Source of the DNA: Sedimenticola sp. | Lineage (GTDB): Bacteria; Pseudomonadota; Gammaproteobacteria; Chromatiales; Chromatiaceae | Direction of reading: 5' to 3' | DNA: 34,393 nt | NCBI GenBank assembly: GCA_026983675.1 | Contig: JALSTP010000190.1 | Span: 1-34,393, forward strand | Shown here: positions 4,052-29,440 of the stretch, piece by piece | Layout: each line of letters opens with the position of its first letter | How positions within the stretch are numbered: the first letter of the stretch is position 1 | Program-made: the position numbers and the translations under genes | The notes under the pieces: generated by a model | The model's input: the letters and a program-made list of their open reading frames with translations, nothing else | The model's database searches: none | Told to the model about the DNA's origin: nothing

Positions 4052-4052
4052 G

Positions 4053-7000
4053 CTACCCCTCCTCCATATGGGCGTGGAGCGGTTCGAGCACCCGCCGGGC
4101 CAGCGCCTCGAAGTGAGCATCCAGCACATCGCCGCCGGGGAAGACCAGGGAATAGTAATCGTCACGCACCCATTCACCTGGGCAGCGATGGTTGCCAAAC
4201 CATTTCCCTTCCGCCGCAGCCATCGCATCCTTTCCGGCGATGCGCGCCACGAGATAGGCCCAACTGGTGTTGGGGAAGTACGGCAGTGGCCGGGCCAGTC
4301 CTTCCCGGTAGCAGGCAAGCAAATCCGCCAACTGTTCACGGGCGTCCGCCACCGGGGTGAAGTGGAGCACACCGCCCTGATGGACCCAGACCGTATGCCG
4401 TCCTTCCTCCTCCGTGACCGACCCGGTATCGCCGTTTCCGCGAACACGCGAAGATCCGGGCCTGCTCACAGGCTGCCGTTTGTCTTCCACCGGCAGGTTC
4501 AGGCAGAGATGGCGCAGCCACAATCTGAGCCGATCCTTGTCCCATAGTTCGCTGGCGCTGTAGCCGAACTGCCCATGACGGCCGATGCCGAAAAGCTCGC
4601 CGCTGAGGGTCATGTCGCCACTGCGCAGATCCACCGACACGCGCTCTGCCGGCACCGTCTCGTGGTACTGGCGTATCCGTTTCACAATGCTTTCCGCATC
4701 CGCCAGATAGCGGGCGAAAAGCGCCTCGCCCCAGGCCCCGTCCGGCAATACGCCCGCCCCCTGCATCCACCGGTGCACCTCTTGCGGGTCCCTGCCATCG
4801 AGCATGGCCGCTACCATCCGTTGCCGCCATTCCGCCACCTCGAAACGGCCCAGTGCCATGGGATCCCGCACCTCCGGCAACGCCGCCCCGCCTTTCAGGT
4901 CGATGCCCATCCGCCGGCGCAGCAGAAAGCGTACCGGATTGGAAAAGAAATACTCCAGGTCGGTCAGTGTCGGGTGGTTCCAACGCTCGGGCGGCTTTGG
5001 CAGAAATCCATCCAGAAAAGGCGGTGGCGACACCTTGCCAGGGACCGTCAACCACTGGGCGGCGCGCGCCAGGGCGCGGGAATAGGCCGCCAGCGGCGAG
5101 CGGCCCGCGGCAAAACAACGGGGATCGAACGCTTGCAGGGGATGGCGGATCACTTTCCCGTTACGCACCTCATCCCGCGCCTTTGCATCGGCGGCATAGC
5201 GGGCGAGGCAGTCGATCAACTCGCTGACCACCACGGAGGGCGGCCGGGGGCTGTTATCGCCGATGTCTTGGCCGACGTAGCTGATCAAGAGTTCCCGGCG
5301 GGCGGCGAGCAGGGTCTCCAGAAACAGATACCGGTCATCGGCCCGGCGGGAGCGGTCCCCCGGCCGGCGATGCCCCTGCATCAGATCGAAATCGGGTGGA
5401 TGGCGCTCGCGGGGAAAGCGGCCGTCGTTCATTCCAATAAGGCAGATGACCTCAAAGGGCAGGCTGCGCTGAGGCGTCAGGGCGCTGAAGGTCACGCCGC
5501 CACGCAGGAAGCCCCCCAGCCCCTGGGTCTGACCGATGCGCTGCTCCAGCAGCCACAGCATGCGCTGGGTCGACACGGGGGCTTGATAATCCGCGGCGCG
5601 CGCCTCGTTCAGCATCGTCGCCAGCAGGTCGCGGAGGGTCTGGAGCTGCCCCTCCTCCTCCCCTTCCGGCAGAAAGAACAGATCCAGCGTCTCCAACAGC
5701 AACGCCACCCATCGGTCCAGGGTGCGGGGGTGCTCCAGTCGTCCGGCCAGGGTGAACAGACGTTCCATGAACTCGTGCAACGCGCCGAGAACGGCGGCGT
5801 CGCCGCCGTCCACGCCGGCATACGGGTGCCATCCCTCGAACATCCGCCCCTCCCCATCGCCCATCGCATAGCCGAGCAGCATCCGGTCGAGTCCCGCCCG
5901 CCAACTGTTGGCGTCACGTCCCTCGCGGCCAAAGCGGCGGCGATGGGCCGCATCCCGCCCCCAGCGGATGGCGTCCTCCCGTACCCAGCGGATGATCTCC
6001 GGCAGATCATCCTCGGCGAGTCCGAAACGCCGCTGCACCGCCGCCACCTCCAGCACCGACAGCGGCCGGTCGGCCTCGAAACGGCCCAGCGGCATGCGCA
6101 GCAGATCCAGAAAGGCGCGGACCATAGGGGCGGCATCCAGGCCGGGGCGGTCGGCGAGTTGAAACGGGATCGACGGCCGGTCGCCCGGCTCGCCGAATAC
6201 CGCCTCGATGTAGGGCGCGTAGACGGCGATATCCGGTGTCATCACCAACACGTCATCGGGCCGGAGACCGGGGTGACGTTCGAACAGGTCGAGCAGCCGG
6301 TCCTGCAACACCTCGACCTCCCGCATCGGGCTGTGACAGGCATGAATCTGTATCGACGGATCGCGGCAGATGGCCGCTGGTTCGATCCGCGCCCCCTCCT
6401 CGGGGGTGCTCAAGAGCAGAATATCCCGCTGCAGCCGGCCCAGCAGCGTCTCCGCCCCCGGCGCCTTGAACAACTCTTCGGAACCTGGATCCAGGTCCAG
6501 GATGGAGGCAAAGAAATCGCGCCCCTGCCCCCCCATCGAGGAGAGCAACGGATTGCCCACGTCCAGATAGAGCTCGTCGCCGCCGGCCTCGGCCTCGCGC
6601 CGGGCCTGCGCGGCCTCGCTCACAGTCTCGCTCCAGTGGCCCTCGCTGGGGTTGAGCAGGAACAGATGGACCTCCGTATGCTCCGCCACCCGCTTCAACA
6701 CCTCCAGGTAACCCGGCGAGAGGGTCTGAATGGCGAACAGAATCACACGATCCGGCAACCGGCCGGTATCGAGACGGCCTTCATCCAGCCCGGTGAAGAA
6801 ACGTTGCTGCCAATAGACCCAGTGTTGCGCCCGGCCCCCTGCCGTCAGCACGCGCCACAACGCCGCCTGCCAGTCGTCGCCTTCGATGGCGCGTTTCCCC
6901 TGCTCCCAGGCCAGAATCCAGTCCGGCCGGTAGACGAGGTATTGGTCGAATACATCGCTGATCCTTTGCGCCAGTTCATGCCGCATGCGTTCATCGGCTT

Positions 7001-7358
7001 GGGAAAGATAGGCGCGCAAAGGATGGAACACGTCGGCGTCGGGTAACGCGGAGAGAAAGGCGTCGATACGCCAGACCATCACTTCCGGCTCGAAGCCTGT
7101 GACCTCGGGGATCTGTTCCGGAAAGAGGCGGCGGAACAACCCCCAGATGAAGGCGCCCGGCAGCGGAAACTCCACATTGGCGCAGACGCCCCGCCCCTCG
7201 GCCAGCCGCAAGGCCAGCCACCGTCCCAGGCCGGCATGGGGCGTCACCACCGCCTCCGGGACGAAGGGAGAGCGGCTCCCCGTCTGCATCACATCGGCCA
7301 GTCGCTGGGCGAGGTCTTCGAGCCGGTTGCTTTGATAGAGACTGAACATGAACGCCAT
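4053..7358 (-). CDS. recC: RecC, exonuclease V gamma subunit
   Basis: RecC is the Chi-recognising scaffold of RecBCD and carries an inactivated helicase fold. The 1101-residue product compares with 1122 in E. coli. It begins MAFMFSLYQSNRLEDLAQRL, recalling the E. coli start MFTVYHSNQLD, so the second Met (codon 4) is an equally good start. Neither has a recognisable Shine-Dalgarno sequence. Later landmarks include VICLIGMNDGRFPR and the C-terminal nuclease-like fold near LTDLEYFFSNPVRFLLRRR. It is the first gene of the recCBD unit, and repeat element A ends only about 40 bases upstream, so the promoter must lie in that short gap or inside the repeat end. Confidence 0.95.
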   Translation of the reverse strand: MAFMFSLYQSNRLEDLAQRLADVMQTGSRSPFVPEAVVTPHAGLGRWLALRLAEGRGVCANVEFPLPGAFIWGLFRRLFPEQIPEVTGFEPEVMVWRIDAFLSALPDADVFHPLRAYLSQADERMRHELAQRISDVFDQYLVYRPDWILAWEQGKRAIEGDDWQAALWRVLTAGGRAQHWVYWQQRFFTGLDEGRLDTGRLPDRVILFAIQTLSPGYLEVLKRVAEHTEVHLFLLNPSEGHWSETVSEAAQARREAEAGGDELYLDVGNPLLSSMGGQGRDFFASILDLDPGSEELFKAPGAETLLGRLQRDILLLSTPEEGARIEPAAICRDPSIQIHACHSPMREVEVLQDRLLDLFERHPGLRPDDVLVMTPDIAVYAPYIEAVFGEPGDRPSIPFQLADRPGLDAAPMVRAFLDLLRMPLGRFEADRPLSVLEVAAVQRRFGLAEDDLPEIIRWVREDAIRWGRDAAHRRRFGREGRDANSWRAGLDRMLLGYAMGDGEGRMFEGWHPYAGVDGGDAAVLGALHEFMERLFTLAGRLEHPRTLDRWVALLLETLDLFFLPEGEEEGQLQTLRDLLATMLNEARAADYQAPVSTQRMLWLLEQRIGQTQGLGGFLRGGVTFSALTPQRSLPFEVICLIGMNDGRFPRERHPPDFDLMQGHRRPGDRSRRADDRYLFLETLLAARRELLISYVGQDIGDNSPRPPSVVVSELIDCLARYAADAKARDEVRNGKVIRHPLQAFDPRCFAAGRSPLAAYSRALARAAQWLTVPGKVSPPPFLDGFLPKPPERWNHPTLTDLEYFFSNPVRFLLRRRMGIDLKGGAALPEVRDPMALGRFEVAEWRQRMVAAMLDGRDPQEVHRWMQGAGVLPDGAWGEALFARYLADAESIVKRIRQYHETVPAERVSVDLRSGDMTLSGELFGIGRHGQFGYSASELWDKDRLRLWLRHLCLNLPVEDKRQPVSRPGSSRVRGNGDTGSVTEEEGRHTVWVHQGGVLHFTPVADAREQLADLLACYREGLARPLPYFPNTSWAYLVARIAGKDAMAAAEGKWFGNHRCPGEWVRDDYYSLVFPGGDVLDAHFEALARRVLEPLHAHMEEG

Positions 7359-10455: not shown

Positions 10456-11328
10456 TCAGTACCCGGCAGGATGGCTCCACTGAGCGCCGCCCGCGAGCAC
10501 GTTGGTGGTCATCTCCACAATCTGCGGGGAGGCCTCCTCCACGACACCCTCCACTTCGCTCCGGTCGAGTCCTGTGATCTCCCAGGCCACCGGATGAATC
10601 CGGCCGATTGAGTCGTCGAGATCATGACCCCATGACTCGCCGCTGGCAACGACACAACCGATATGCACCAAAGCGGTCTCCAGTCCGAAGTCGCCGACTT
10701 CTTCCAGGGCGTGGTGATACCGGACAACTTGCTGAATGCTCTCGGGAAGCCCCCATTGTTTCACTAATGCGTGGCCCACCTCGGCATGATCGAAACCCAG
10801 CACGTCCTGCTCCGCCGCGCTCAACAGATCGTCGTCCCGCTCGGCGATGAGGAGGATATCCCGCGCCTGCTCCGGGAGGTGCTGAAGGATGGCCAGCCGG
10901 CCAATGTCGTGCAACACCCCCATCACAAACAACCGTTCGCCATGCAACACATCGCAGCGTTTGGCCAGGGTCCGGGCATAGGCGCCGGTACTGATCGCAT
11001 AGTGCCAGTACTCGGTCATGTTCATCAGGTCCGCGGGGATCCCGTTGAAGAGCTGCCGCGCGGCGGTCATGACTGCCAGATCCCTCAGGTCCCGGGTGCC
11101 GATGACAGTCACTGCCCGGGAGATGGTCTCCACCGGTACCGGCAGTCCGTACATGGCGCTGTTCACGGTACGCAGCAGACGCGCACTCAAATCGGTATCC
11201 TGGCTGATGACTTCACCGATATCCGCCGCGGAAAATCGGGGCGAGTCGATCATTTGGTTGACGTGGACGCACACCTCGGGCAACGCCACCAGTTGGTCGA
11301 TATTGGCTACGAATTCGGTGACAGTCAT
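10456..11328 (-). CDS. HDOD domain signalling protein
   Basis: HDOD proteins are catalytically degenerate relatives of HD phosphohydrolases that act as scaffolds in bacterial signalling, often alongside c-di-GMP enzymes. The product is 290 residues from ATG 11328, chosen because GGAGAA lies about eight bases upstream; a start 14 codons earlier lacks one. The HDOD region covers roughly residues 5-205, with VISQDTDLSARLLRTVNSAM, VLHDIGRLAI and YHHALEE as landmarks. No output domain follows, only about 60 residues rich in acidic side chains. It is transcribed in the same direction as the GGDEF-EAL gene 250 bases downstream, and a functional link is plausible but unproven. Confidence 0.9.
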   Translation of the reverse strand: MTVTEFVANIDQLVALPEVCVHVNQMIDSPRFSAADIGEVISQDTDLSARLLRTVNSAMYGLPVPVETISRAVTVIGTRDLRDLAVMTAARQLFNGIPADLMNMTEYWHYAISTGAYARTLAKRCDVLHGERLFVMGVLHDIGRLAILQHLPEQARDILLIAERDDDLLSAAEQDVLGFDHAEVGHALVKQWGLPESIQQVVRYHHALEEVGDFGLETALVHIGCVVASGESWGHDLDDSIGRIHPVAWEITGLDRSEVEGVVEEASPQIVEMTTNVLAGGAQWSHPAGY

Positions 11329-11394
11329 AGTTTTTTCTCCGGAGAACAGGCTGTTTGTTGGATGGGCCAAGGGTATTGCAAGGATGTGCCGTCA

Positions 11395-11421
11395 TTTTCA
11401 ATGTCTGTAACCCATTGAAAA
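11395..11421. promoter_or_regulatory. Inverted repeat upstream of the HDOD gene
   Basis: TTTTCAATG and CATTGAAAA form a perfect 9-bp inverted repeat around a 9-base spacer, about 67 bases before the HDOD start. It could be an operator or a weak hairpin. There is no run of T on either side to make it a convincing terminator. Confidence 0.4.
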
Positions 11422-11474
11422 CAAAGGAACCAGAACAGGCCGTTCTTTCCGGTTCCGTGCTTGAAAGGGTCCGA

Positions 11475-11552
11475 GGAGTCTGTCGGATTTAGGATAAGTC
11501 TACTGCGCTTTCCCCCCATGCACGCGACGATCACCTAAACCCGACAGACTCC
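11475..11552. mobile_element. Second, unrelated short MITE-like element (78 bp)
   Basis: GGAGTCTGTCGGATTTAGG at 11475-11493 is matched, with one mismatch, by the inverted copy at 11534-11552. The 40 bases between are non-coding. CGAG occurs on the outer side of both ends and could be a four-base target duplication. The ends look like insertion-sequence termini, but I see no transposase and no second copy in the window. Confidence 0.55.
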
Positions 11553-11579
11553 GAGAGAGAGCCTTTCAACATCCTGTTG

Positions 11580-11607
11580 GGGCGCGGTGGCATCCTGCAC
11601 CGCGCCC
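11580..11607. terminator. Strong GC-rich hairpin
   Basis: GGGCGCGGTG (11580-11589) and CACCGCGCCC (11598-11607) form a perfect 10-bp stem around an 8-base loop, followed on the plus strand by ACTTTCC. It resembles a terminator without a full T tract. With no plus-strand gene ending just before it, its role is unclear. The rest of 11329-11736 contains no gene. Confidence 0.4.
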
Positions 11608-11736
11608 ACTTTCCTATAGTCGACCCAATATCCCCAACCTTTACCGCCTGGGGATCAGCCGCTACAGTGGGCACATTTCAGGATGTGACACAGATCTCAT
11701 GTGTCTCGCTTCAATCTTCATTCGGAGAGGTTACCC

Positions 11737-11961
11737 ATGCCCTATTTCATCTACAGAATCACACCACCGGACACCTTCGAACACCTCGACACGAAGGAAA
11801 AGTACCGGGACGCCAAGGTCCGAGTCACGGAACTGCGCAAGGCACTGCCCGATGACAGCGACGACATCGTTCGCATGATCTTCGCCAAGAATACGATGGA
11901 GGCCACCAAGCTGCTTGCCCGGCCCCCGGAGCACGAAGGCCAGATCATCGGCGACGACTGA
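11737..11961 (+). CDS. Small conserved hypothetical protein (74 aa)
   Basis: A soluble, charged protein starting MPYFIYRITPPDTFEHLD and ending IIGDD. I recall similar small proteins with the same MPYF-YRI opening and a GDD/GDE ending in other gammaproteobacteria, but no function is known to me. The start is ATG 11737, preceded by GGAGAGG, rather than the GTG-type starts further up. It contains no cysteine or signal peptide, and the Lys/Arg/Asp-rich middle (YRDAKVRVTELRKAL) is probably helical. It precedes the DUF1631 gene by 136 bases on the same strand. Confidence 0.8.
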   Translation: MPYFIYRITPPDTFEHLDTKEKYRDAKVRVTELRKALPDDSDDIVRMIFAKNTMEATKLLARPPEHEGQIIGDD

Positions 11962-12097
11962 CGCCTTGTACGCCTTCATGATATTCTTGTCTTTCGATGA
12001 GAATTTTATTCTTCCGCCTGCAGGCAGTAGACATTCAGGCACAGCAGCGATCCTGTCGCCAATGCACCGTACGCGACGCAGCGGTTGAGGAACGGAG

Positions 12098-14404
12098 ATG
12101 AAATCAAACCGGTCGCCCGAAACAAACACCGGCGCTTCGCGATTCCCGGGACTCTTGGACCAGTGCCGCGACATCGTGCTCGTCTTCGCCAATGCCCAGC
12201 TTGCGGAGATGTTCAGCCATACCGATACCGCCCTGATCGATTTTGCCGAAAAGGCGGAGAACAATCAGGTACAGGGGCGTTTTTTCGAGGCCATCACCGA
12301 GATTCGCAATCAGCGGCCCGATATCGAACACACGATGCGCCAGCAGATAACCGCGGCCTTCAACAAGATGGGAAATTGGCAGGGCGCTCAGTTCGGCGAT
12401 GGCGCCGGTCCCGGATATGAAGTGGAGGAACTGACCCTGGTGGATGACGACGACATGGACGAATCGGTCGCCATCGGCAACATGATCCAGCGCACCGAGG
12501 CGAACTGCTACGCCGAACTCTATGCCCTGGGACAGCGCTTCGCCATCCTCAACCGCGGCAGGAAGATGACCGCCGATGAGTTGCCGGCCGGTCCCCACCC
12601 CCTGGTCTACGGCTTTCAGGCGGCACTGCGGCCGGTGCAGATCGATACCCGGGTCAAGCTGGTGCTCTATGCCCTGTTCGACAAATTCTTTTTGAAGCAA
12701 CTGCCCGGTCTCTATGACGAACTGAATGCCCTGCTCACCGAAGCTGGCATACTGCCCAACCTCAAGCCCGCGGTGAACAAGGCCGGTCAAGCGGCGAAGG
12801 CGGGCCGACAAGAAAAAAAACATGAGAAAAGCGAACAGGATGGAAAGGCCGATCAGCCGCGCGCCGTACCCTCCCGGGCGCTGGGAGAGGAACTGTTCGA
12901 CAACATCCTCGACCTGATGAAGGCGAACCGGCAGCGTAGCGGCCGGCCCGTGCGCGAACCGAAGCACCCCGTTCCCAAGGAAGAACTGGTCTCCGTCATC
13001 CACCACATCGAGCCCTCCGTGGGCACCCTCTTTCCCGAAAGCGACGGAAGTGACGCCGCCCTCATCTCCAACATCGAGATCGACCTCGAACTCCTGGAGC
13101 GGATCAAACGCACCCTCGCCCAGGACCGGGAACAGATCTTCAACGAAATTGGCGAAGAAAACATCAGTGGCGCCGACGCGGACACGATCGACCTGGTGGG
13201 CATGCTGTTCGAATACATGCTCAACGACCCGGTCCTGCCCAACGTGGCCAAGGCGCTCATCAGTCACCTGCACACCCCATACCTCAAGGTGGCCATCATC
13301 GACCGCGAGATGCTCACCAACAGTCTGCATCCGGCGCGGGAACTGCTCGATCTGCTGGTGGAGGCGGGCGGCCTCTGGGTCGACGAAACGGATACCGCCT
13401 ACGGTATCTTCCCCCACATGCAGACTGTGGTGGATCGCGTTCTCAAGGATTTCATCGATGATATTACCCTGTTCGGCGAACTCCTCGCTTGGTTCAGAGG
13501 CAAGGTGGAAGCCCAGAGGCAAAGCACCCAGCTCATCGAGAAGCGCACCCAAGAGGCCACGAAGGGCAAGGAAAAGCTCCAAGTCGCGAGGACCCGCGCC
13601 CAACAGGAGATGAAGGCGCGCACCGGGCAATGGCCGCTCCCCGGCGTTGTGACGGACTTCCTCACCCGGACCTGGGTGGACAAACTGATCTTCATCCTGC
13701 TGCGCAATCCGGAAGGCGAATTCAGCGACGAATGGAACGAGGCACTGCGGCTGGCCGATGAGATCGCCTGGGCGTTCGATCCCAACGCTACCGACGCCAG
13801 TCGCAAGGCATTTGCACATAGCCTGCCCAAACTCCGATCAAGCATAGAAGAAGGTCTGGAATCCCTCGGCGGTGTGGCGCGTGGCAATATCGACGCCCTG
13901 TTCAGGTTGCTTGAATCGCCAGCAAAACCTTGGGATACGGTGTCGTCCGAGGAAAAGAAAGCCGCAGTTGAACCGCCGGCCCTGGCAGCGCAGCACCGTA
14001 CCCCGTCTTCCCGATTCATCAGCGGCGAAACCGGCCAGGCGGATGAAGAGGCCGAAAAACCGCCCACCCCGGCCGAAAACGAACTGATGGGGCGGCTGCG
14101 TGCGCTCGGTACCGGCCTGTGGTTCGAGCTGATCCCGCCGGACAGCGACACCCGGCGCCGCATAAAGCTTTCCTGGCTGAGTGAGAAAACCGATCTCTGC
14201 CTGTTCGTGGACCGCGCCGGCGTTCAGGCCGCCGTGATGCCCCTGCTTGACCTCGCTCGGGCCATTCTGTCGGACAACGCCCGCATCATTCGTCAGCCCA
14301 AGCAACCCTTCATCGAACGGACACTGGTGGCGATCCGCAACTTTCTCCGTCATCCGGAAAAAACGCAAAAAGATAAAGAGCCTGACGATACTGCCGCTAC
14401 CTGA
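12098..14404 (+). CDS. DUF1631 family protein
   Basis: A 768-residue cytoplasmic protein of the DUF1631 family, which has no established reaction. The N-terminal part (CRDIVLVFANAQLAEMF) and the segment EVEELTLVDDDDMDESVAIG are characteristic. A low-complexity linker rich in Lys/Gln/Glu is at about 225-255 and a charged helical stretch at about 470-500. The last 100 residues (FELIPPDSDTRRRIKLSW then CLFVDRAG) resemble a PilZ-like barrel without a clear RxxxR c-di-GMP motif; that is my inference. ATG 12098 follows GAGGAACGGAG. A true PilZ gene follows within 90 bases, which fits a shared c-di-GMP theme. Confidence 0.88.
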   Translation: MKSNRSPETNTGASRFPGLLDQCRDIVLVFANAQLAEMFSHTDTALIDFAEKAENNQVQGRFFEAITEIRNQRPDIEHTMRQQITAAFNKMGNWQGAQFGDGAGPGYEVEELTLVDDDDMDESVAIGNMIQRTEANCYAELYALGQRFAILNRGRKMTADELPAGPHPLVYGFQAALRPVQIDTRVKLVLYALFDKFFLKQLPGLYDELNALLTEAGILPNLKPAVNKAGQAAKAGRQEKKHEKSEQDGKADQPRAVPSRALGEELFDNILDLMKANRQRSGRPVREPKHPVPKEELVSVIHHIEPSVGTLFPESDGSDAALISNIEIDLELLERIKRTLAQDREQIFNEIGEENISGADADTIDLVGMLFEYMLNDPVLPNVAKALISHLHTPYLKVAIIDREMLTNSLHPARELLDLLVEAGGLWVDETDTAYGIFPHMQTVVDRVLKDFIDDITLFGELLAWFRGKVEAQRQSTQLIEKRTQEATKGKEKLQVARTRAQQEMKARTGQWPLPGVVTDFLTRTWVDKLIFILLRNPEGEFSDEWNEALRLADEIAWAFDPNATDASRKAFAHSLPKLRSSIEEGLESLGGVARGNIDALFRLLESPAKPWDTVSSEEKKAAVEPPALAAQHRTPSSRFISGETGQADEEAEKPPTPAENELMGRLRALGTGLWFELIPPDSDTRRRIKLSWLSEKTDLCLFVDRAGVQAAVMPLLDLARAILSDNARIIRQPKQPFIERTLVAIRNFLRHPEKTQKDKEPDDTAAT

Positions 14405-18165: not shown

Positions 18166-18804
18166 CTATTTCCTGGCGGCAACATTTTTTCCCTGTCTTG
18201 CCCTCGGTAGAAAGGCGAGGCTGCTGAGAACCTGTTTCAGTTCTTTCTTGACCGCTGCATAGTCGTCGAAGAGAAACACCACATAGGCATCGGCCACGGT
18301 GCTGCGATGCATGGCGAGCACCAGCCCCTGTTTGTACTGGCTGCCGTAGTCGGGGGCGACATCGAAGACCCCGGCCGCCGCCCAGTCGGCGTTGAACAAC
18401 TGTCTTGCCTGCTCCACCGGATACTCCTTGGTCGGTGTATAGCCTCCCCCAGAGAGACGGGTGGCCACCGACTGGAACATCAGCGGGAAGATGTGATTGG
18501 GATCAGGGGCCGAACCATGGGGGTCGTCGTACTCGATGTGCAACCGCTTGAAAGGCCGTACCGTATAACGAATCTCCAGCCGTCCATCGGGGCTCGCTAC
18601 GGCCCTGTCATAGTCGAACACCTCATTCGGGCGCACCGCTTTTTCACGATACCCTTCGGGGAGTTGCAAACGCATCTCGCTCTCGTCGATTAACGCAGTG
18701 AATCCGGGATAATCCCCGGCAACGGGCGCGCCGCTCTGGGCGGCGGGCGCGGCCATCAGGCCCAATGAAACCATCGACAAAAGCATCGTCATCAGAGGCT
18801 TCAT
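18166..18804 (-). CDS. Exported protein of unknown function, coupled to a TPR gene
   Basis: A 212-residue secreted protein with a signal peptide (MKPLMTMLLSMVSLGLMAAP, cleavage near AQS). The mature part includes YPGFTALIDESEMRLQLPEGY, LEIRYTVRPFKRLHIEYDD and VADAYVVFLFDDYAAVKKEL. I do not recognise the family. It has no cysteine near the cleavage site, so it is not an obvious lipoprotein. Its ATG (18804) overlaps the TPR gene's TGA as ATGA, giving translational coupling. As the last gene after the cytochrome and TPR genes, it may be a periplasmic partner of that system. Confidence 0.8.
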   Translation of the reverse strand: MKPLMTMLLSMVSLGLMAAPAAQSGAPVAGDYPGFTALIDESEMRLQLPEGYREKAVRPNEVFDYDRAVASPDGRLEIRYTVRPFKRLHIEYDDPHGSAPDPNHIFPLMFQSVATRLSGGGYTPTKEYPVEQARQLFNADWAAAGVFDVAPDYGSQYKQGLVLAMHRSTVADAYVVFLFDDYAAVKKELKQVLSSLAFLPRARQGKNVAARK

Positions 18805-19625
18805 GGCGTCTTCTCCTTTGTGACCTCTGTTTTGGATTCCGCGGGCTTGTCTGCCGATTTGGCCACTTGGCCGGTGGACCATCTCTTGAGAATCGCCTGC
18901 GCGCTCTGTTTCCATTTCTCGTTCTTGCTGAGTTCGATGAAACGCTTGAGATCGGCCTCTGCGTCCTTCCGCCGCCCCAGGATGTCGTACACCATGGCGC
19001 GATTGAAATAGGGCGCCGGCGTATGGGGATCGACGGCGATACAACGATCGAAATCCTGCAACGCCTCTTGGTTCCTTGCCGCCTTCACCCGGAGCACCCC
19101 GCGGTTGAAACGCGCAGACAGGTTGTCAGGCTGCAGTTCGATAGCGCGATCGAGGTCCGCCATCGCCTCTTTCTTGCGTCCGAACTGGAGATAGGCCTGA
19201 GCGCGGTTGACGAGGATGCGGGCATCCTTGGGCGCCAGTGTGGCGGCCTTTTCGAGGTCTTCGAGTGCATTGGCATATTTCTGTTGCTGCAGGTAGAGGC
19301 TGCCGCGCACTGCATAGAGGTCGGCGTTGTCGCCGTACCGGGCGATGGCCTCGTCGAGGGTCTGCATCGCCAGCGGTGTGCGCCCCTCCTGCTGATGTTG
19401 CAGGGCCACCTTTATCAGGCTCTCGGGCCCCAGGGTGGCGTGGGGGTTGTATTGCCCGTGCGGCCCCCTGACGACCGAAGCCGACTGATTCATGGCCTCC
19501 TGCCCCGGCGCAGCCGCTGAGGGATCCGCCAAGGAGATTGCGGCGAGGAGGGACAGAATGGCGCCAACCCCCGTCAACCACGATCGATTCGGCAATTTTG
19601 AATGTTGTTTTCGACTCATCTTCAT
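18801..19625 (-). CDS. Exported tetratricopeptide-repeat protein
   Basis: A 274-residue protein with an N-terminal hydrophobic segment (SWLTGVGAILSLLAAISLAD) acting as signal peptide or anchor. It has about five TPR units, for example YANALEDLEKAATLAPKDAR, EAMADLDRAIELQPDN and EALQDFDRCIAVDPHTP. The C-terminal tail is rich in Lys, Glu and Ser. TPR proteins in the envelope usually assemble or dock multi-protein complexes. ATG 19625 has GGAG six bases upstream; codon 3 is also an ATG. The 12-heme cytochrome gene ends 127 bases upstream across a hairpin, so the TPR pair may be co-transcribed at a lower level. Confidence 0.85.
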   Translation of the reverse strand: MKMSRKQHSKLPNRSWLTGVGAILSLLAAISLADPSAAAPGQEAMNQSASVVRGPHGQYNPHATLGPESLIKVALQHQQEGRTPLAMQTLDEAIARYGDNADLYAVRGSLYLQQQKYANALEDLEKAATLAPKDARILVNRAQAYLQFGRKKEAMADLDRAIELQPDNLSARFNRGVLRVKAARNQEALQDFDRCIAVDPHTPAPYFNRAMVYDILGRRKDAEADLKRFIELSKNEKWKQSAQAILKRWSTGQVAKSADKPAESKTEVTKEKTP

Positions 19626-19668
19626 GACCTGCTCCGAAGCCCTTGTGTGGTAAGGGGTGCCGGTGAAG

Positions 19669-19702
19669 GAAAGGCCCGTCATGAGAACACGACGGGCCTT
19701 TC
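19669..19702 (-). terminator. Hairpin terminator after the cytochrome gene (distal)
   Basis: GAAAGGCCCGTC and GACGGGCCTTTC form a perfect 12-bp stem around a 10-base loop. Read on the minus strand the stem runs into TTTCCTTC. It is the better of two hairpins downstream of the cytochrome gene and probably terminates or attenuates transcription before the TPR gene. Confidence 0.65.
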
Positions 19703-19714
19703 GGTTTGTGCCTG

Positions 19715-19739
19715 CACTCCTGGCCCGGGGCCAGGAGTG
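19715..19739. terminator. Hairpin just downstream of the cytochrome stop
   Basis: CACTCCTGGCCC and GGGCCAGGAGTG form a 12-bp inverted repeat with a one-base centre, 13 bases after the cytochrome stop. A nearly loop-free palindrome would need to open to form an RNA hairpin. It may protect the 3' end of the mRNA or act together with the next hairpin. Confidence 0.5.
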
Positions 19740-19752
19740 TGCCCAGTCTACG

Positions 19753-22152
19753 CTATTTCTTCGACTTGGACGCGGCGTAGGTCTTGAGCAGCTTGTTCAG
19801 CATCTCGATGTGCTGCGCATCGGTGAGTTGACCCGGCGTGGAGACCTTGTCCCACAGCTGCTTGTTGGTCATTTCACGATGGCAACCCATGCAGAGACCC
19901 GTGCGCTCCATGGCCTGTCGCATCTCCTTCGGCAGCGACCGGGAGAGCGGCCAGTGGGTGCCCACGGTCTGGGTCTGCTCGCCATTCTTGACGATGGTTG
20001 ACCAGTCGTAGTCCAGTGCGGAAATCTTCTGGATCTGGATCTTGTAACGGTTGGGAATCACCTTGCCCGTCTTTTGATCGATCAGATCCTCGACGACATC
20101 CACCGGATACCGGGTCTGGAACACCCCGCCCGCGATCCCGTAGCCAAGCGCCTTGGGATTGTTGTGGCAAGACTCGCAGGTCCGTGCCTTGCGCTGCGCC
20201 GAGTGCGGCTGCACCGGGGCCATGTCGATGCCATCCGGCACCCGCTTTTGCCCCAGTTCCTTCTGCTCGTCGTAGGACTTGGCCATCTGGTTGAGCGCCA
20301 CCGCCTTGCCGTCACGTCCGATAACGGTGTAGACCACCTGGCAACCCGGCATCAGCGGCGTCACGCGCCCTTCGCCGTTGATCCCCAGGACCGGCTCTTC
20401 CCAACGCAGGTAGGAGCGCGTCTCGAACACCTTGCCCGGGCTCTTGATGCCGTGGGTCCCGAGCGGCGACTCGGCGGTCTGGCCGTTGTCGGTGCGTTTG
20501 GAACCGCCGGCGATCCAGTCGGTGTCCATGTAGGGCTTGCCTTTCTTGTCCTTGCCGTAGTTGACCTGGACGTGACAGCCATAGCACTGCGGCACCCATG
20601 ACGCATGGCAGGTATAGCACTCCAGGCTCTCCTGGTGCTTCTTCACCTTGCTCATGGCCACCATGGCGTCAGGGCTCTTCCAGCTGTTGTCGAGGGCGAT
20701 CTGCTTCAGCAGCGGGACCTCGAAATCGTTGCCGGTCGCCGAGTGCAGGATCACCTTTTTGCCTTCCTTCACCACGTTACCGAAGGGGTTGCCCCGGGTG
20801 GTCTTGAGGTATCCGTCCTTCTTGTCGTACGTGGTGGCAAAGGCCGCCGTCTCCGCCATCAACTCCTGCCCCAGACCTCTGCCCTTATCCGCCAGTTTGC
20901 CCTTGAACTCCTCGGAGTAACCCAGAGGCAGCTCCCAGGGAAATTTATCAGGCGTGCCATGACAGTCCTGACACTCGATCTCTACCTGCGCCAGCGTGGT
21001 GCCGAAGATGTTGCCATCGCCGTGCATGTCGATGGACGTGTGGCAGTCCTGACAGAGCATGCCGCCCTTTGGGTTGCCGGGCCGGCTCTGGTCGATCTGG
21101 TGATGCAGATCGTCGGAGATGAAGAGATACTTCTTGGTGTGCAGCTTCGGCTGCTTCATGCCTTTCTCGTCCCACGGCGACCCATATGGAAACTCCATCA
21201 ACCCCTGATAGGTCACACCGATACGCTTGCCGCGGTTGTGGCAACTGTTGCAGGTCTCTACAGGGATACCTGAATACTCCACGTCACCGTGTTTGACCTT
21301 GGTCTTGCGGGTGGCCTGAAGCTTGTGTACCAACATATGGCCCTTCTCGTTCTTGTCGATGGTGGGGTCGTTGCCCTCGTAGTAGCCCTCGTTACCATAG
21401 GGTATATGGCAGGAGGAGCACCCCATGCCACGGTAGTCACCCCGCTTCTCACGGCCTTTGACGCCGACATGGCAGCGCTGGCATTGCTGGCGCTGATAGG
21501 TGAATCCCGCCAGTTTCGGATCCTTCTCGATCTCCTCGACGGAAGGCTGCGGAATCTGCTTCAACTCGGTGGGAAACTGATCCTTGTGGGCAGCGATCAT
21601 CGCCTTCATGTATGCCTTGTACTCCTTGGTCCCCACCTGCGGCACCTGACCATCCGTGTCCTTCACGTCGTAGTCCCCCCAGGGCACCTTGTGGTTCTGC
21701 ACCTCCTTGATCCCCCAGGTATGGAGATTGCCCTGGATCTTTCCCGCCTCGGTGTTCATCAGGGCCCGTTCCAGCCGGTAGGGATATCCGGCATGGCACT
21801 GCCCGCAGGTATTGTTGGCGATCCAGATCGATCCGGGATCGGGGTAGAAGGTCTTGGGACCGGCGCCGCTCTTGAGCCCTTTCGGCGCCCCGCTATGGGC
21901 CTCCTTCGCGGTCAGCCCCATCGGGTTTCCCCCATGACAGACGACGCATCCGTTGGCATCTCCATTGGCCTGACCCAATGCCTGGATCTGCAACATCATC
22001 GGCGTCTTCGCGTCCCGGATCTCTTCGATACCCTCATGACAGCTCAGACACCCTTTTGCCTTGGCCGTCGCCGGACTCACTTTCTCAGGCACACCTGCCT
22101 GAACCCAGTTGGCCAGACTGATGGCCATCAGGATGAACAATAGTCGTTTCAT
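19753..22152 (-). CDS. Secreted dodecaheme c-type cytochrome
   Basis: A 799-residue periplasmic or outer-surface electron-transfer protein. A signal peptide (MKRLLFILMAISLANWVQAG) is followed by twelve CxxCH heme sites at about residues 34, 68, 116, 223, 244, 301, 367, 394, 511, 522, 658 and 755. They read CLSCH, CVVCH, CGQCH, CQRCH, CSSCH, CNSCH, CQDCH (twice), CYTCH, CYGCH, CESCH and CMGCH. Hemes 9 and 10 are only 11 residues apart. There is no transmembrane segment beyond the signal. I do not recognise it as nitrite reductase, hydroxylamine oxidoreductase or MtrA/OmcA, and no catalytic signature is visible. AAGGGGGGAAG precedes ATG 22152. Confidence 0.92.
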   Translation of the reverse strand: MKRLLFILMAISLANWVQAGVPEKVSPATAKAKGCLSCHEGIEEIRDAKTPMMLQIQALGQANGDANGCVVCHGGNPMGLTAKEAHSGAPKGLKSGAGPKTFYPDPGSIWIANNTCGQCHAGYPYRLERALMNTEAGKIQGNLHTWGIKEVQNHKVPWGDYDVKDTDGQVPQVGTKEYKAYMKAMIAAHKDQFPTELKQIPQPSVEEIEKDPKLAGFTYQRQQCQRCHVGVKGREKRGDYRGMGCSSCHIPYGNEGYYEGNDPTIDKNEKGHMLVHKLQATRKTKVKHGDVEYSGIPVETCNSCHNRGKRIGVTYQGLMEFPYGSPWDEKGMKQPKLHTKKYLFISDDLHHQIDQSRPGNPKGGMLCQDCHTSIDMHGDGNIFGTTLAQVEIECQDCHGTPDKFPWELPLGYSEEFKGKLADKGRGLGQELMAETAAFATTYDKKDGYLKTTRGNPFGNVVKEGKKVILHSATGNDFEVPLLKQIALDNSWKSPDAMVAMSKVKKHQESLECYTCHASWVPQCYGCHVQVNYGKDKKGKPYMDTDWIAGGSKRTDNGQTAESPLGTHGIKSPGKVFETRSYLRWEEPVLGINGEGRVTPLMPGCQVVYTVIGRDGKAVALNQMAKSYDEQKELGQKRVPDGIDMAPVQPHSAQRKARTCESCHNNPKALGYGIAGGVFQTRYPVDVVEDLIDQKTGKVIPNRYKIQIQKISALDYDWSTIVKNGEQTQTVGTHWPLSRSLPKEMRQAMERTGLCMGCHREMTNKQLWDKVSTPGQLTDAQHIEMLNKLLKTYAASKSKK

Positions 22153-24406: not shown

Positions 24407-24471
24407 AGGCCAACCGTCTCCGGCATAACACACATGGCCGTCCCATTGCCTCCTCGCCATCGCCGATCGTT

Positions 24472-24486
24472 ATATCTTCGTGATAT
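24472..24486. promoter_or_regulatory. Candidate operator upstream of the Met-rich gene
   Basis: ATATC and GATAT flank TTCGT about 90 bases before the Met-rich protein start, within a wider AT-rich patch (TTATATC then GTGATATTTA). An OmpR-family regulator encoded two genes on could bind here. No second copy was found before msrP, which weakens the idea. Confidence 0.3.
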
Positions 24487-24574
24487 TTACGTGATCCAGC
24501 CTTTATCTCCGTCTGTTTTACTTCTTTCCGTGGCTTGCAAAGGCCCACCGTTTATCAATAGAGAGGGAAAAACC

Positions 24575-24880
24575 ATGAAAACAGCATATGTTACCGCGAT
24601 CATCGCACTCGTCACTGCCGCCCCCTTCGCCCAGGCCGAATCGATGGATAAGGGCAAAATGATGGAAAAACCGATGCATCACGAACAGATGATGCACGAA
24701 GAGAAAATGATGGATGGCGACAAGAAAAAGATGATGATGAAGAAAAAGGCAATGCATGGGGACGACATGATGGAGGAGTCCTCGAAAATGGAAAAGATGG
24801 AAAAACCGATGCATCAGGAGCACATGATGCACGAAGAGAAGATGATGGATGGCGACAAGAAAAAGATGATGATGAAATAG
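24575..24880 (+). CDS. Secreted Met-rich repeat protein (MrpX-like oxidant scavenger or metal binder)
   Basis: A 101-residue protein with a clear signal peptide (MKTAYVTAIIALVTAAPFAQ, cleavage near AQA-ES). The mature 80 residues hold 24 Met, 7 His, many Lys and acidic residues, and no Cys. Two 26-residue repeats, 31-56 and 76-101, differ at only two positions and contain MMHEEKMMDGDKKKMMM. GAGAGGGA precedes ATG 24575. It lies directly ahead of a two-component system and msrPQ-msrB. The Azospira MrpX protein, a Met-rich periplasmic sink for hypochlorite recycled by MsrP, is the closest known parallel. Copper binding by Met/His clusters is the main alternative. Confidence 0.85.
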   Translation: MKTAYVTAIIALVTAAPFAQAESMDKGKMMEKPMHHEQMMHEEKMMDGDKKKMMMKKKAMHGDDMMEESSKMEKMEKPMHQEHMMHEEKMMDGDKKKMMMK

Positions 24881-24928: not shown

Positions 24929-24934
24929 TATACT
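24929..24934 (+). promoter_or_regulatory. Possible -10 box of a leaderless regulator transcript
   Basis: TATACT lies eight bases before the ATG at 24943, and no Shine-Dalgarno sequence is present. A start of transcription near 24941-24943 would give a leaderless mRNA. The -35 position falls in the upstream hairpin and does not match TTGACA, suggesting an activator-dependent or weak promoter. Confidence 0.3.
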
Positions 24935-24942
24935 TGGACACC

Positions 24943-25671
24943 ATGTCTCCCAACCCATCCGCAAGAAAACGCGTCTTGATCGTAGAGGATGACGCCGACA
25001 TCGCCCGTCTGGTCCAACTTCACCTCGAAGACATCGACTGCGAGGCCGACGTGGTCCACGACGGCGCCGAGGGTCTCGAACGGTTTCAGGCCCGCCCCTA
25101 CGCTTTGGTGGTGCTGGACCTGATGCTGCCCGGGATGGATGGCCTCGCTTTGTGCCGTAAACTGCGCGAGTCATCCGACTATGTCCCCATCCTGATGCTC
25201 ACCGCGCGCACCTCCGAGCTGGACCGGGTGATCGGTCTGGAGAGCGGCGCCGACGACTACCTGACCAAACCCTTCAGCATTCCCGAACTGCAAGCGCGCA
25301 TCAAGGCGCTGTTCCGCCGTGTGGAAGCGCTCTCCAGCCCCCGCCCCACCGAACAGGAACAGGCCACGCTCCGCCACGGGGACCTGCTTATCGACCCCTT
25401 GCGCCATCAGGTGACGCTGGCAGGTGACCGCATTGACCTCACTGCGCGTGAATTCGCCCTGCTGCTGTATTTTGCCCGGCACCCCGGCCAAGTGTTCAGC
25501 CGCAGCCAACTGCTCGATCAAGTATGGGGCTACAACCACGACGGCTACGAACACACCGTCAACACCCATATCAACCGACTGCGCGCCAAGATCGAACGGG
25601 ACCCGGCCAACCCCCGCTATATCGAGACGGTGTGGGGCGTGGGCTATCGCTTCGCAGTCCCCCCATGCTAA
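24943..25671 (+). CDS. OmpR/PhoB-family response regulator
   Basis: A 242-residue DNA-binding regulator. The receiver domain has the acidic pair in VLIVEDDADIARL, the phosphorylated Asp at about residue 59 in LVVLDLMLPGMDG, and the conserved Lys in DDYLTKPF. A winged-helix output domain follows, with LTAREFALLLYFARHPG and YIETVWGVGYRF. ATG 24943 is preferred over TTG 24934. The stop overlaps the kinase start by seven bases. By position it is the counterpart of E. coli HprR (YedW), which controls msrPQ under hypochlorite or copper stress; that role is inferred. Confidence 0.92.
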   Translation: MSPNPSARKRVLIVEDDADIARLVQLHLEDIDCEADVVHDGAEGLERFQARPYALVVLDLMLPGMDGLALCRKLRESSDYVPILMLTARTSELDRVIGLESGADDYLTKPFSIPELQARIKALFRRVEALSSPRPTEQEQATLRHGDLLIDPLRHQVTLAGDRIDLTAREFALLLYFARHPGQVFSRSQLLDQVWGYNHDGYEHTVNTHINRLRAKIERDPANPRYIETVWGVGYRFAVPPC

Positions 25672-27143
25672 AGACGCTCTATGCCCGCCTCGCCGTTGGT
25701 CTCGTCCTGCTGCTGGCCGTGATCGGCCTGCTTTATACCGCCATCACCCGCTACGCCACCGAGCACTACCTGCAGGAGATCAGCCACAATCTCAACCGTA
25801 ACCTGGCCAGAAACCTGGTGGCCGACCGCAACCTGGTGGCCGCCGGAAAGCTCGACGAGGCGGCGCTCAAAGAGACCTTCCGCCAGTACATGGTGATCAA
25901 TCCCAGCATCGAGATCTATCTGCTCGACCTGGAGGGCCGCATCCTCTCCTTCTCGGCTGACCCGGGCAAGGTGAAACGCAAACGGGTCTCGCTGGGACCG
26001 ATCCGTGCGTTCCTGCGCGGCCCCCAGACTACCCCGCTGCTGGGCGACGACCCGCGCAGCCACGACCGCCAAAAGGCCTTCTCCGTGACCCCGGTCCCCA
26101 GCGCCGAGGCGCCCGAAGGCTATCTCTACGTGGTGTTGCGTGGAGAGGAGTTCGATCAGATCGAGCGCGCCGCCCGCGAAGGGTTGTTCCGCCGCATCAA
26201 CGGCTGGGCCTTCGGCATCAGCCTGCTGTTCGGCCTGATCGCCGGCCTGATCGTCTTCAGGGGCCTGACCCGGAGGCTCCACCGTCTCTCGTCGCAGATG
26301 CAGGCCTTTCACGAGAGCGGTTTTCGCCATCATACACCCTATCGCGCCACCCGCCGCCAGCAGGCGGACGAGATCGACCGGCTCGGACACACCTTTGACG
26401 AAATGGCCGAACGGATCGAAACCCAGATCAAGCAGTTGGAGGCCCAGGACGGCCTGCGGCGCGACCTTGTGGCGCGAGTCTCCCACGACCTGCGCACACC
26501 GCTGGCCTCACTGCAGGGCTACCTCGAATCGCTGGCGATGAAGGGCGACGGAATCTCCCCTGATCGGCGCAAGGAGTACATCCGCATCGCCCTGCGTCAA
26601 AGCCGCCGCCTGGCACAGCGCATCGATGAGCTGTTCGAACTGGCCCGCCTCGACGCCCAGGAGACGCGCCCCCGCTGCGAGCCCTTCTCCCCGGCCGAGC
26701 TCCTGCACGACGTATCGCAGAAGTATCACCCGCGGGCGGAGCAGCAGAGGGTGCGCCTGGAACTGCAGACCGGCGATGCGCTCCACATATTTACAAGTGC
26801 CGACATCGCCCTCACCGAGCGAGTGCTGGAAAACCTGCTCGACAACGCCTTCAGTCACACGCCCGAGGGCGGCCATATCGAAGTGCGTCTCGCGGCCGAC
26901 GGGGCGGGAGCCATCATCTCTGTCACTAACACCGGTCAGGGCATTGCCGCCGCCGACCTGCCCCACTTGTTCGAACCCTTCTACCGCGCCGGCAACGGCA
27001 ACGACGAACGTCCTCACGCCGGCCTTGGCCTCGCCATCGCCAAACGCCTGGTCGAACTCCAGGGGGGCGCTATCCGTGTCGAGAGTGTGCCCGCTAAAGG
27101 CACCACGTTCACCTTCACCCTGCCGCTGGCAGAGACGTTATAA
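25665..27143 (+). CDS. Membrane sensor histidine kinase partnering the regulator
   Basis: A 492-residue kinase. Transmembrane helices at about 9-27 and 181-199 enclose a periplasmic sensor region of about 150 residues without cysteine and with few Met. HAMP, HisKA (RVSHDLRTPLASLQ, phospho-His about 274) and HATPase domains follow, with ENLLDNAFSHT, NTGQGI, LFEPFYRA and GLGLAIAKRLV. ATG 25665 overlaps the regulator stop, so the pair is coupled. It occupies the position of E. coli HprS (YedV), next to msrP, but the sensed signal cannot be read from the sequence. Confidence 0.92.
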   Translation: MLKTLYARLAVGLVLLLAVIGLLYTAITRYATEHYLQEISHNLNRNLARNLVADRNLVAAGKLDEAALKETFRQYMVINPSIEIYLLDLEGRILSFSADPGKVKRKRVSLGPIRAFLRGPQTTPLLGDDPRSHDRQKAFSVTPVPSAEAPEGYLYVVLRGEEFDQIERAAREGLFRRINGWAFGISLLFGLIAGLIVFRGLTRRLHRLSSQMQAFHESGFRHHTPYRATRRQQADEIDRLGHTFDEMAERIETQIKQLEAQDGLRRDLVARVSHDLRTPLASLQGYLESLAMKGDGISPDRRKEYIRIALRQSRRLAQRIDELFELARLDAQETRPRCEPFSPAELLHDVSQKYHPRAEQQRVRLELQTGDALHIFTSADIALTERVLENLLDNAFSHTPEGGHIEVRLAADGAGAIISVTNTGQGIAAADLPHLFEPFYRAGNGNDERPHAGLGLAIAKRLVELQGGAIRVESVPAKGTTFTFTLPLAETL

Positions 27144-27196
27144 AATCGTGAGCCTTCCGTAAACGCCCTGTGAAAGGGGCAGACGATACTGTACCT

Positions 27197-28168
27197 ATGA
27201 AGAAGATACGACACTCAATCAGACCCTCAGAAATCACCGACCGTGCCGTCTACATGAACCGGCGCCGTTTCATTGCCGGTATGACGGCAGCGGGATTGAC
27301 TGGCACGGCCTCCGCCTTTTCGTTTTTCGGCCTGTTTGGCGATGATGAGCCCACGGCCGTCGAGCTGTACCCTCGCCGTCCCCTGAAGGCGTCGCGTCGG
27401 GCGTTCAGCGTCGACGAATCTCCCACCGACGAGGCAGATGCAATCGGGTACACCAATTTCTACGAATTCGGTACCGAAAAAGGGGATGCCCAACGCTATG
27501 GTGAGAGATTCAAGCCGGAACCCTGGCGCCTTACCATCGACGGCGAATGCGAACGGCCAGGCGACTATACGCTCGAAGATATCCTCAAGCCCCACCCATT
27601 GGAGGAACGCATTTACCGCCTGCGTTGTGTCGAGACCTGGTCCATGGTGATTCCCTGGGTGGGATTCCCCCTGGCCGATCTGCTCAAGCGCTTCGCCCCC
27701 ACCTCCCGCGCAAAATACGTAGCCTTCGAAACCCTGTATGATCCCGAACAGATGCCCGGCCAACGTCGTGCCGTAGTGGAATGGCCTTACCGCGAGGGGC
27801 TGCGCATGGACGAGGCGATGCACCCACTGACGCTGATCGCAGTGGGGATGTACGGTGAGACCCTGCCGGTGCAGAACGGCGCCCCTCTGCGACTCGTCGT
27901 GCCTTGGAAATACGGCTTCAAGAGCATCAAATCCATCGTCCGCATCCACTTCAGCGAGAAGCTGCCCGTCACCACCTGGAATCAACTCCAGCCCGATGAA
28001 TACGGCTTCTACGCCAACGTCAATCCAGCGGTGGACCACCCCCGCTGGAGCCAGGCGCGGGAACGGCCGGTGGGCGGTTGGCGGCGGCGCGACACCCTCC
28101 CCTTCAATGGCTATGCCGAAGAGGTCGCCCACCTCTATCACGGCATGGATCTGGCGAAATATTTCTGA
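27197..28168 (+). CDS. msrP: MsrP, periplasmic protein-methionine sulfoxide reductase (molybdopterin)
   Basis: MsrP reduces both R and S methionine sulfoxide in oxidised envelope proteins, taking electrons from MsrQ. This 323-residue protein is collinear with E. coli YedY. It has a twin-arginine signal ([20 protein letters not shown]), [15 protein letters not shown], the molybdenum ligand Cys at about residue 144 in [43 protein letters not shown] and [14 protein letters not shown] 27197 aligns with the E. coli MKK start; a GTG nine codons earlier is possible. It lacks a clear ribosome site. It lies 53 bases after the kinase and is followed at once by msrQ. Confidence 0.96.
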
Positions 28169-28170
28169 TC

Positions 28171-28836
28171 ATGAACAGAACCAAAAGAGTTGGAACAGCT
28201 GGGAGGGTTGGCGTTGTGAAGCCCTTGGTCTTCGCTGCCGGGATGATGCCCTTGAGCCTTCTTTTCTGGCGGGCTTTCAACGATACGCTGGGCGCCAACC
28301 CTGTCGAAAGCCTGATCCACGAGACCGGCCTGTGGGCGTTGCGGCTGCTGCTACTGACGTTGGCCATGACGCCTCTGCGCCGTATCACGGGCTGGCCGGG
28401 CTGGATCCGCCTGCGCCGCATGTTGGGCCTTTACTGTTTTTTCTATGCCGTGCTGCATCTCACGGTCTACCTGTGGCTGGACCAGGAACTTCGTCTCTCC
28501 GCCATCATCGAAGACGTCATCAAGAGACCCTATATCACCGTGGGGGCCGCCACCTTTCTGATGCTGACGCCGCTGGCCGCCACCTCTTTCAACCGTGCCA
28601 TCCGCTGGTTGGGCGGCAAGCGCTGGAAACAACTGCATCGACTCGTCTATCTCTGTGGACTGGGGGCCGTCATCCATTACCTCTGGCTGGTGAAGGCCGA
28701 TCTGGCCCCACCGCTGATGTACCTCATGATCCTGCTTGGCTTGCTTGCCTTCAGGATTCCCCCGTCACTCCTTCGCAGATTGAGGGGCTATTCCACTGGC
28801 AAACTGGAGACAAAACATGAACGCTATCAGACTTAG
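28171..28836 (+). CDS. msrQ: MsrQ, heme-binding membrane subunit of MsrPQ
   Basis: MsrQ is a six-helix heme b protein that passes electrons from the respiratory chain to MsrP. The 221-residue product shows [40 protein letters not shown] and [20 protein letters not shown], with the conserved His residues of the ferric-reductase-like core. ATG 28171 lies two bases after the msrP stop. A GTG at 28216, preceded by GGGAGG, could give a protein 15 residues shorter with the usual hydrophobic start. Its end overlaps the msrB start by 20 bases. Confidence 0.94.
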
Positions 28837-29440
28837 AAGACGCTGGATGCCGTTGTTGGCGGGTGCCGCCCTGCTGGGTCTTTGGGTTTTTGCGGCCGCC
28901 ACAGGCACCCGGACCCATCCGCAAGGAGACCCGACGATGAAAGACAGCTCAAACGCGCAGATTCAAAACACGAAATGGCACCGCCCCACCGCTGCGGAAT
29001 TGAAGCAACGTCTGACCCCCGAGCAGTATCACGTCACCCAGGAGGAAGGCACTGAACGCCCCTTCAAAAATGCCTATTGGGACAATCATCAGGAAGGCAT
29101 TTATGTGGACATCGCCTCCGGTGAACCGCTCTTCAGCTCGCGTGAGAAGTATGATTCCGGCACCGGCTGGCCGAGTTTCTACGCGCCTATAGAGCCGGCC
29201 AACATCGTCCGTAAACACGACCGGAAGTGGTTTATGGAACGCATCGAGGTACGCTCCCGGATAGGCGACTCACACCTCGGCCATCTGTTCGATGACGGTC
29301 CCGCGCCCACGGGGCTGCGTTACTGCATCAACTCCGCTGCACTGAAGTTCATCCCCAAGGAAGAAATGGAAAAGGCGGGCTACGGCGAATATCTCTATCT
29401 GTTCGAAAAAGCGCCTGAGACCGCCTCGAAAGCGCAGTAG
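28817..29440 (+). CDS. msrB: MsrB, peptide-methionine (R)-S-oxide reductase, exported form with internal start
   Basis: MsrB reduces methionine-R-sulfoxide. The 207-residue reading from ATG 28817 has an N-terminal membrane anchor or signal ([20 protein letters not shown]). The MsrB domain shows [40 protein letters not shown] and the catalytic Cys170 in [11 protein letters not shown]. Cys170 is the only cysteine: the zinc CxxC pairs are missing and the usual resolving Cys in SGCGWPSF is Thr. ATG 28937 (residue 41) has its own AAGGAG eight bases upstream and would make a cytosolic enzyme without the anchor. GGAG also precedes the first ATG. Linkage to msrPQ suggests envelope repair. Confidence 0.95.

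Follow-up and report, generated by a model that had tools for sequence, protein, structure and literature searches.

An ExtM-superfamily twelve-heme cytochrome with its own exported partner proteins in Sedimenticola, a possible periplasmic reductase

The described systems closest to the one considered here are the ext cluster of Geobacter, to which ExtM belongs, and the NrfA systems. The ext cluster affects selenite and tellurite reduction through the porin ExtI, the phenotype shown in Geobacter being that of extI and not of extM, and ExtM is conserved across all Geobacter species compared (PMC5877670). The pentaheme nitrite reductase NrfA, a terminal reductase, is supplied by NrfH or by NrfBCD, and NrfG is a tetratricopeptide repeat (TPR) protein (PMC12285233). 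Here, we analyse a 34,393-nucleotide stretch of DNA from Sedimenticola sp. (contig JALSTP010000190.1; the whole stretch is referred to as the window), which encodes a 12-heme c-type cytochrome related to ExtM, followed by genes for a TPR protein and a second exported protein. We found no description of this cytochrome subfamily or of the three-gene module in the open-access literature, which is our sole basis for judging novelty and which, for ExtM, yielded only the study of ExtI and one on cable bacteria. The cytochrome and its two longest inserts lie as follows:

19753..22152, (-) strand: 12-heme c-type cytochrome of the ExtM superfamily, 799 aa, with a Sec signal peptide and 12 CxxCH motifs
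20179..20571, (-) strand: heme-free insert, residues 528–658, containing segment ETRSYLRWEEPVLGINGEGRVTPLMPGCQ and the invariant non-heme Cys604
20620..20958, (-) strand: second long heme-free insert, residues 399–511, between hemes 8 and 9, supported by alignment and conservation

An earlier, sequence-only reading of this DNA had claimed 12 CxxCH sites, and exactly 12 were counted, at residues 35, 69, 116, 224, 245, 301, 367, 394, 512, 523, 659 and 754; shuffled sequences contained a mean of 0.03 and a maximum of 2. The reading frame is confirmed by homologs in other genera that are 75–83% identical. The pair of hemes described as 11 residues apart corresponds to the motifs at 512 and 523, and the heme-free stretches given as about 117 and 136 residues are close to the distances of 118 and 136 measured from Cys to Cys, but the motif-free residues number 113 and 131, and a third heme-free gap, of 103 residues, had been overlooked. 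Heme 3 is bound by CX2CH in the window cytochrome and by CX4CH in many homologs, so every full-length member of the subfamily has 12 hemes; heme loss in homologs with 11 CxxCH motifs was rejected because heme 3 (heme 1 in L099 and L101) is CX4CH there. At two homologous loci, L149 (4301–6588) and L007 (7758–10366), the coding sequence of the cytochrome falls into two frames that overlap, through a frameshift caused by assembly error or decay.

Whereas the sequence-only reading could name no family for the cytochrome, we found it to be a relative of ExtM, with which all 12 hemes align one by one, together with a non-heme PGCQ motif. Its best NCBIfam match is the ExtM model NF040943 (7e-61), at 206 bits versus a cut-off of 800, while genuine ExtM proteins of Desulfuromonadia score 940–1132 bits. 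ExtN, ExtO, ExtP, ExtQ, ExtS and ExtKL were not found beside the window cytochrome, no gene for a further cytochrome, a Rieske protein or a cytochrome b was recognised there, and the window genome contains a single ExtM-like gene. Because of the sub-threshold score and the lack of ext neighbours, we place the protein, by sequence comparison, in a distinct sister subfamily within the ExtM superfamily rather than in ExtM itself. In the class of Desulfuromusa, 58 of 117 genomes encode proteins above the ExtM cut-off, and others encode two 12-heme kinds far below it, of about 800 aa (window-like) and about 630 aa. At L106, the region just upstream of extM (10462–13586) encodes a FeS-type protein together with a large exported one resembling, by appearance, a molybdopterin oxidoreductase; neither belongs to the ext cluster in its published G. 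sulfurreducens form.

Positions outside the heme motifs are also extensively conserved. Cys604 and PGCQ are invariant in all 30 aligned sequences, ExtM included, and the superfamily-invariant features outside the heme motifs comprise, among others, five histidines, the CYxCH...QCYGCH arrangement at hemes 9 and 10, and PGCQ with Cys604. Across 23 sequences, the proportion of invariant positions is 23% in the PGCQ insert and 35% in the region of hemes 4–8. Only 10 non-motif histidines are invariant in the alignment, for 12 hemes. The embedded non-heme domain that had been suspected from the long heme-free stretches can therefore be described as a conserved non-heme segment common to ExtM, since PGCQ and Cys604 are superfamily-invariant within a heme-free insert.

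Downstream of the cytochrome, the module continues on the same strand:

18801..19625, (-) strand: exported TPR protein, 274 aa, with TPR matches in Pfam, supported by alignment and by its conserved position downstream of the cytochrome
18166..18804, (-) strand: exported accessory protein, 212 aa, its start overlapping the TPR stop codon as ATGA
19739–19715 and 19702–19669, (-) strand: two strong RNA hairpins at the cytochrome/TPR junction (minimum free energy -67.2 kcal/mol, z -4.7)

Profile searches recovered the order cytochrome, TPR protein, exported protein in the window, in L002, L009, L029, L030, L031, L033, L034, L036, L109 and L111, and further in L139–L144, L149, L153 and L176–L179. 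The proposal that the three genes belong together was thus borne out at about 20 loci in two phyla, covering many families of Gammaproteobacteria as well as Planctomycetota. In L005 and L183, two loci from one genome, the contig runs out at the TPR gene, and L035 has the TPR protein without the exported protein. Among 369 genomes of the class, sampled and many of them draft assemblies, the exported protein was present in 13, the cytochrome (counted at E <= 1e-100) in 21 and both in 12 (Fisher p 3e-16, uncorrected for phylogeny). An occurrence of the exported protein alone in the thirteenth genome (G489) was discounted, the gene there being cut by the contig end. In a maximum-likelihood tree, the cytochromes of the triad fall into one clade (support 87/97). 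A Porin_5 beta barrel adjoins the module or its relatives in L002, L009, L036, L109, L111, L139, L145, L146, L149, L151, L176, L178 and L179; no Porin_5 homolog was found in the window genome (99.8% complete) or in several other triad genomes. In a plasmid collection, the best match reached only 21% coverage at 26–29% identity, in sphingomonads.

Translational coupling by ATGA had been ascribed to the whole set. It holds for the TPR and exported protein genes, but the cytochrome and TPR genes are 127 nt apart and separated by the two hairpins. In 10 of the 15 loci compared, this junction carries strong hairpins, unrelated in sequence and in some cases followed by U-runs (L031, L033 and L140), the shuffle test covering the window only. 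A consensus terminator scan of the window did not flag its hairpins, because no U-run follows them; they are a possible attenuator or terminator, and the junction appears more consistent with conserved read-through attenuation than with a simple coupled operon. An ATG at 19682 was rejected as the TPR start as it lies inside a hairpin, while the start at 19625 gives a signal peptide and is preceded by GGAG; similarly, a 292-aa start for the exported protein was dismissed as an upstream extension of the 212-aa open reading frame. The TPR protein, which looks like a lipoprotein in several relatives, is a candidate dedicated scaffold or chaperone. The 212-aa protein matched no Pfam or NCBIfam family. 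Its model (pLDDT 80) has PsbP-type proteins as most of its best seven Foldseek matches (E 1e-4 to 1e-3, TM 0.34–0.56), the resemblances being to PsbP, CyanoP, LpqN and DcrB at modest TM-scores, and a PsbP/Mog1-like alpha-beta-alpha fold is tentatively predicted from the model. Such folds are frequent among small accessory proteins.

In sister clades, the cytochrome is encoded next to different partners. At L038 and L039 (about 58% identical), a NapC/NirT-type pentaheme protein follows downstream (PF03264, 4.5e-72). In Desulfuromonadia (L003, L099 and L101, and in part L100), the genes immediately ahead of the cytochrome are those for a 4-heme protein, a FeS protein of the DsrO-like kind and an NrfD protein of the DsrP family; L099 and L101 additionally have a divergent histidine kinase and sigma-54 regulator beside this set. 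These partners are quinol dehydrogenases, which suggests a reductase or an electron hub in the periplasm. Their exchange mirrors, by analogy and not by homology, the alternative supply of NrfA. The window genome has two NapC/NirT genes, located elsewhere from the module. Loci of one sister clade, which lacks the triad, have a small exported protein after the cytochrome, in L145 (9362–9793), L041 (1304–1720) and L148 (3850–4323), with a common YTVxQLL motif in L145 and L041; it may be another clade-specific partner.

The comparison with Mtr, Pio, Omc and HAO-type cytochromes that the sequence-only reading had suggested was made here at the level of sequence. No HAO model was among the Pfam and NCBIfam matches of the cytochrome at E up to 1, the OmcA/MtrC model TIGR03507 gave 17.9 bits versus a cut-off of 209.3, and single-sequence and profile searches of the PDB matched nothing at E up to 1, nanowires of the OmcS/OmcE/OmcZ type included. 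The NrfA model did not match the cytochrome, all 12 of whose motifs are CxxCH. As anticipated, no characterised soluble enzyme family was found to contain the protein.

We tentatively favour a quinol-fed periplasmic terminal reductase that would act on a small soluble oxyanion in anaerobic respiration, with the TPR and PsbP-like proteins as helpers. This is based on the conservation of non-heme residues, the 10 invariant histidines for 12 hemes, the quinol-dehydrogenase partners and the small size of the porin. Electrons from the quinol pool would enter through a membrane quinol dehydrogenase, in the window genome probably an unlinked NapC/NirT-type protein and in sister clades the operon partner, and would pass along the heme chain of the cytochrome to a candidate site, made up of the PGCQ insert and a heme lacking a conserved distal histidine, at which the oxyanion would be reduced. 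The TPR protein would serve as a dedicated periplasmic scaffold or assembly chaperone, the PsbP/Mog1-like protein as a small accessory subunit, and the Porin_5 barrel, where present, might admit the substrate. We infer reductase activity, the direction of electron flow, the class of substrate and the roles of the TPR and accessory proteins from these observations; the link to ExtM suggests metalloid oxyanions as the first substrate candidates.

Several points weigh against this proposal. Within the clade to which the window's module belongs, it has no linked quinol dehydrogenase. An AlphaFold model of the cytochrome, built from a 15-sequence alignment, was unusable (pLDDT 38.6), and the empty PDB searches leave the open heme site putative. 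Two near-invariant histidines, H272 (replaced by Lys in two sequences) and H351 (replaced by Tyr in one), could supply the two distal ligands that seem to be lacking. Moreover, the genetic evidence on selenite and tellurite reduction concerns the porin gene extI rather than extM, and this reduction could be incidental.

Multiheme cytochromes commonly act as hubs or wires, and the protein could be a non-catalytic periplasmic hub that passes on electrons from quinol dehydrogenases, with other reductases or the outer membrane as recipients, a possibility that we rate clearly below the reductase. Such a hub would be equally compatible with the quinol dehydrogenases linked in sister clades, and hemes 4–8 exceed the cut-off of the MtrC/MtrF domain II/IV model (55 vs 30 bits), but that model is unspecific, since it also matches a NapC protein, and conservation of non-heme residues over long inserts, down to about 30% identity, seems beyond the needs of a wire. 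It is unlikely that electrons run the other way, with the cytochrome oxidising a sulfur species or another reduced inorganic compound and delivering the electrons to the quinone pool or cytochrome c. NrfD/DsrP-type modules can operate in either direction, which is not legible from sequence, and some lineages that have the family, Ectothiorhodospiraceae for instance, include sulfur oxidisers; yet quinol oxidation is the usual role of NapC/NirT-type partners, and metalloid reduction is what the ExtM cluster has been linked to.

Still less probable is the trans-envelope conduit envisaged by the sequence-only reading, in which the cytochrome would sit in or dock to a porin and serve insoluble donors or acceptors. 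A Porin_5 barrel does adjoin in about a dozen loci, but it measures about 360–420 aa against about 700 for MtrB, and no surface-exposed cytochrome is linked. MtrB/PioB (PF11854) was not found in the window genome (G000), which also lacks a linked porin, although the same search detected it in other genomes; nor was it found in nine others (G008, G055, G054, G058, G111, G237, G318, G348 and G417), the first four of which carry the cytochrome with neither barrel. This absence, shared by several other near-complete genomes with the set, weakens the case for an Mtr/Pio arrangement. Given the lack of MtrB/PioB, the lack of a linked porin and the NrfA-like swap of partners, a periplasmic reductase is likelier than a conduit, and the cytochrome is probably an undescribed enzyme of anaerobic respiration rather than an outer-membrane wire. 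With rather less confidence than we attach to the quinol-fed reductase itself, we consider that it may represent an undescribed class of respiratory reductases, in which an ExtM-superfamily 12-heme cytochrome with its own PsbP-like and TPR partners, shared between phyla, would have an oxyanion site containing an invariant non-heme Cys.

These results connect a cytochrome that looked like an orphan with the ExtM superfamily, itself poorly understood, define around this cytochrome a transferable module of three to four genes, and link two protein families to it. Should the reductase reading prove true, the Gammaproteobacteria and Planctomycetota would have a multiheme respiratory enzyme of a new class, and there would be a handle on the role of ExtM itself.

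Elsewhere in the window, large open reading frames match a UvrD-type helicase of the RecB kind (473–4447, (-) strand) and RecC (4053–7358, (-) strand), and the long (+) strand open reading frames over 473–7358, which have no Pfam match, are probably antisense. On the (+) strand, 24434–24880 encodes a small exported protein with Met/Lys/His-rich repeats (MMHEEKMMDGDKKKMMMK), possibly metal-related, directly followed by an OmpR-type response regulator and histidine kinase (24934–27143). After this two-component system come a molybdopterin-binding oxidoreductase (PF00174) and a SelR-type methionine sulfoxide reductase, in an MsrPQ-like setting (27170–29440, (+) strand). Among other loci, L045 (5943–9770) and L046 (6908–10633) encode proteins of about 1250 aa with 10 CxxCH motifs that only weakly match the cytochrome profile; the cluster around them, which is conserved, also encodes a second 10-heme protein as well as exported proteins.

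Compared with known systems, the module resembles the MtrA/MtrB, PioA/PioB and OmcA/MtrC conduits in that a multiheme cytochrome sometimes lies beside an outer-membrane barrel, but the barrel is an optional Porin_5 protein and not MtrB/PioB. With the NrfA systems (NrfHA and NrfABCDEFG), it has in common a multiheme cytochrome supplied by NapC/NrfH-type or cytochrome/FeS/NrfD proteins and, in NrfG, a TPR protein; unlike the 5-heme NrfA, the window cytochrome has 12 hemes, no CxxCK heme and no linked heme-lyase genes. The 12-heme cytochromes of about 630 aa in Desulfuromonadia (L102–L105) are 37–38% identical to the window protein and agree with it in heme register and PGCQ, but they have shorter inserts and no TPR or PsbP-like partner, form a separate clade and, in L102 and L105, adjoin a related two-component system. 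Finally, ExtM itself (GSU2935-type, Geobacter extHIJKLMNOPQS) is shorter, at 613–666 aa versus 799 aa, and 26–29% identical, and the window cytochrome has TPR and PsbP-like partners in place of ext neighbours, yet the two are alike in their 12 hemes, one to one, including the closely spaced hemes 9 and 10, as well as in the heme 7 region and the non-heme PGCQ motif.

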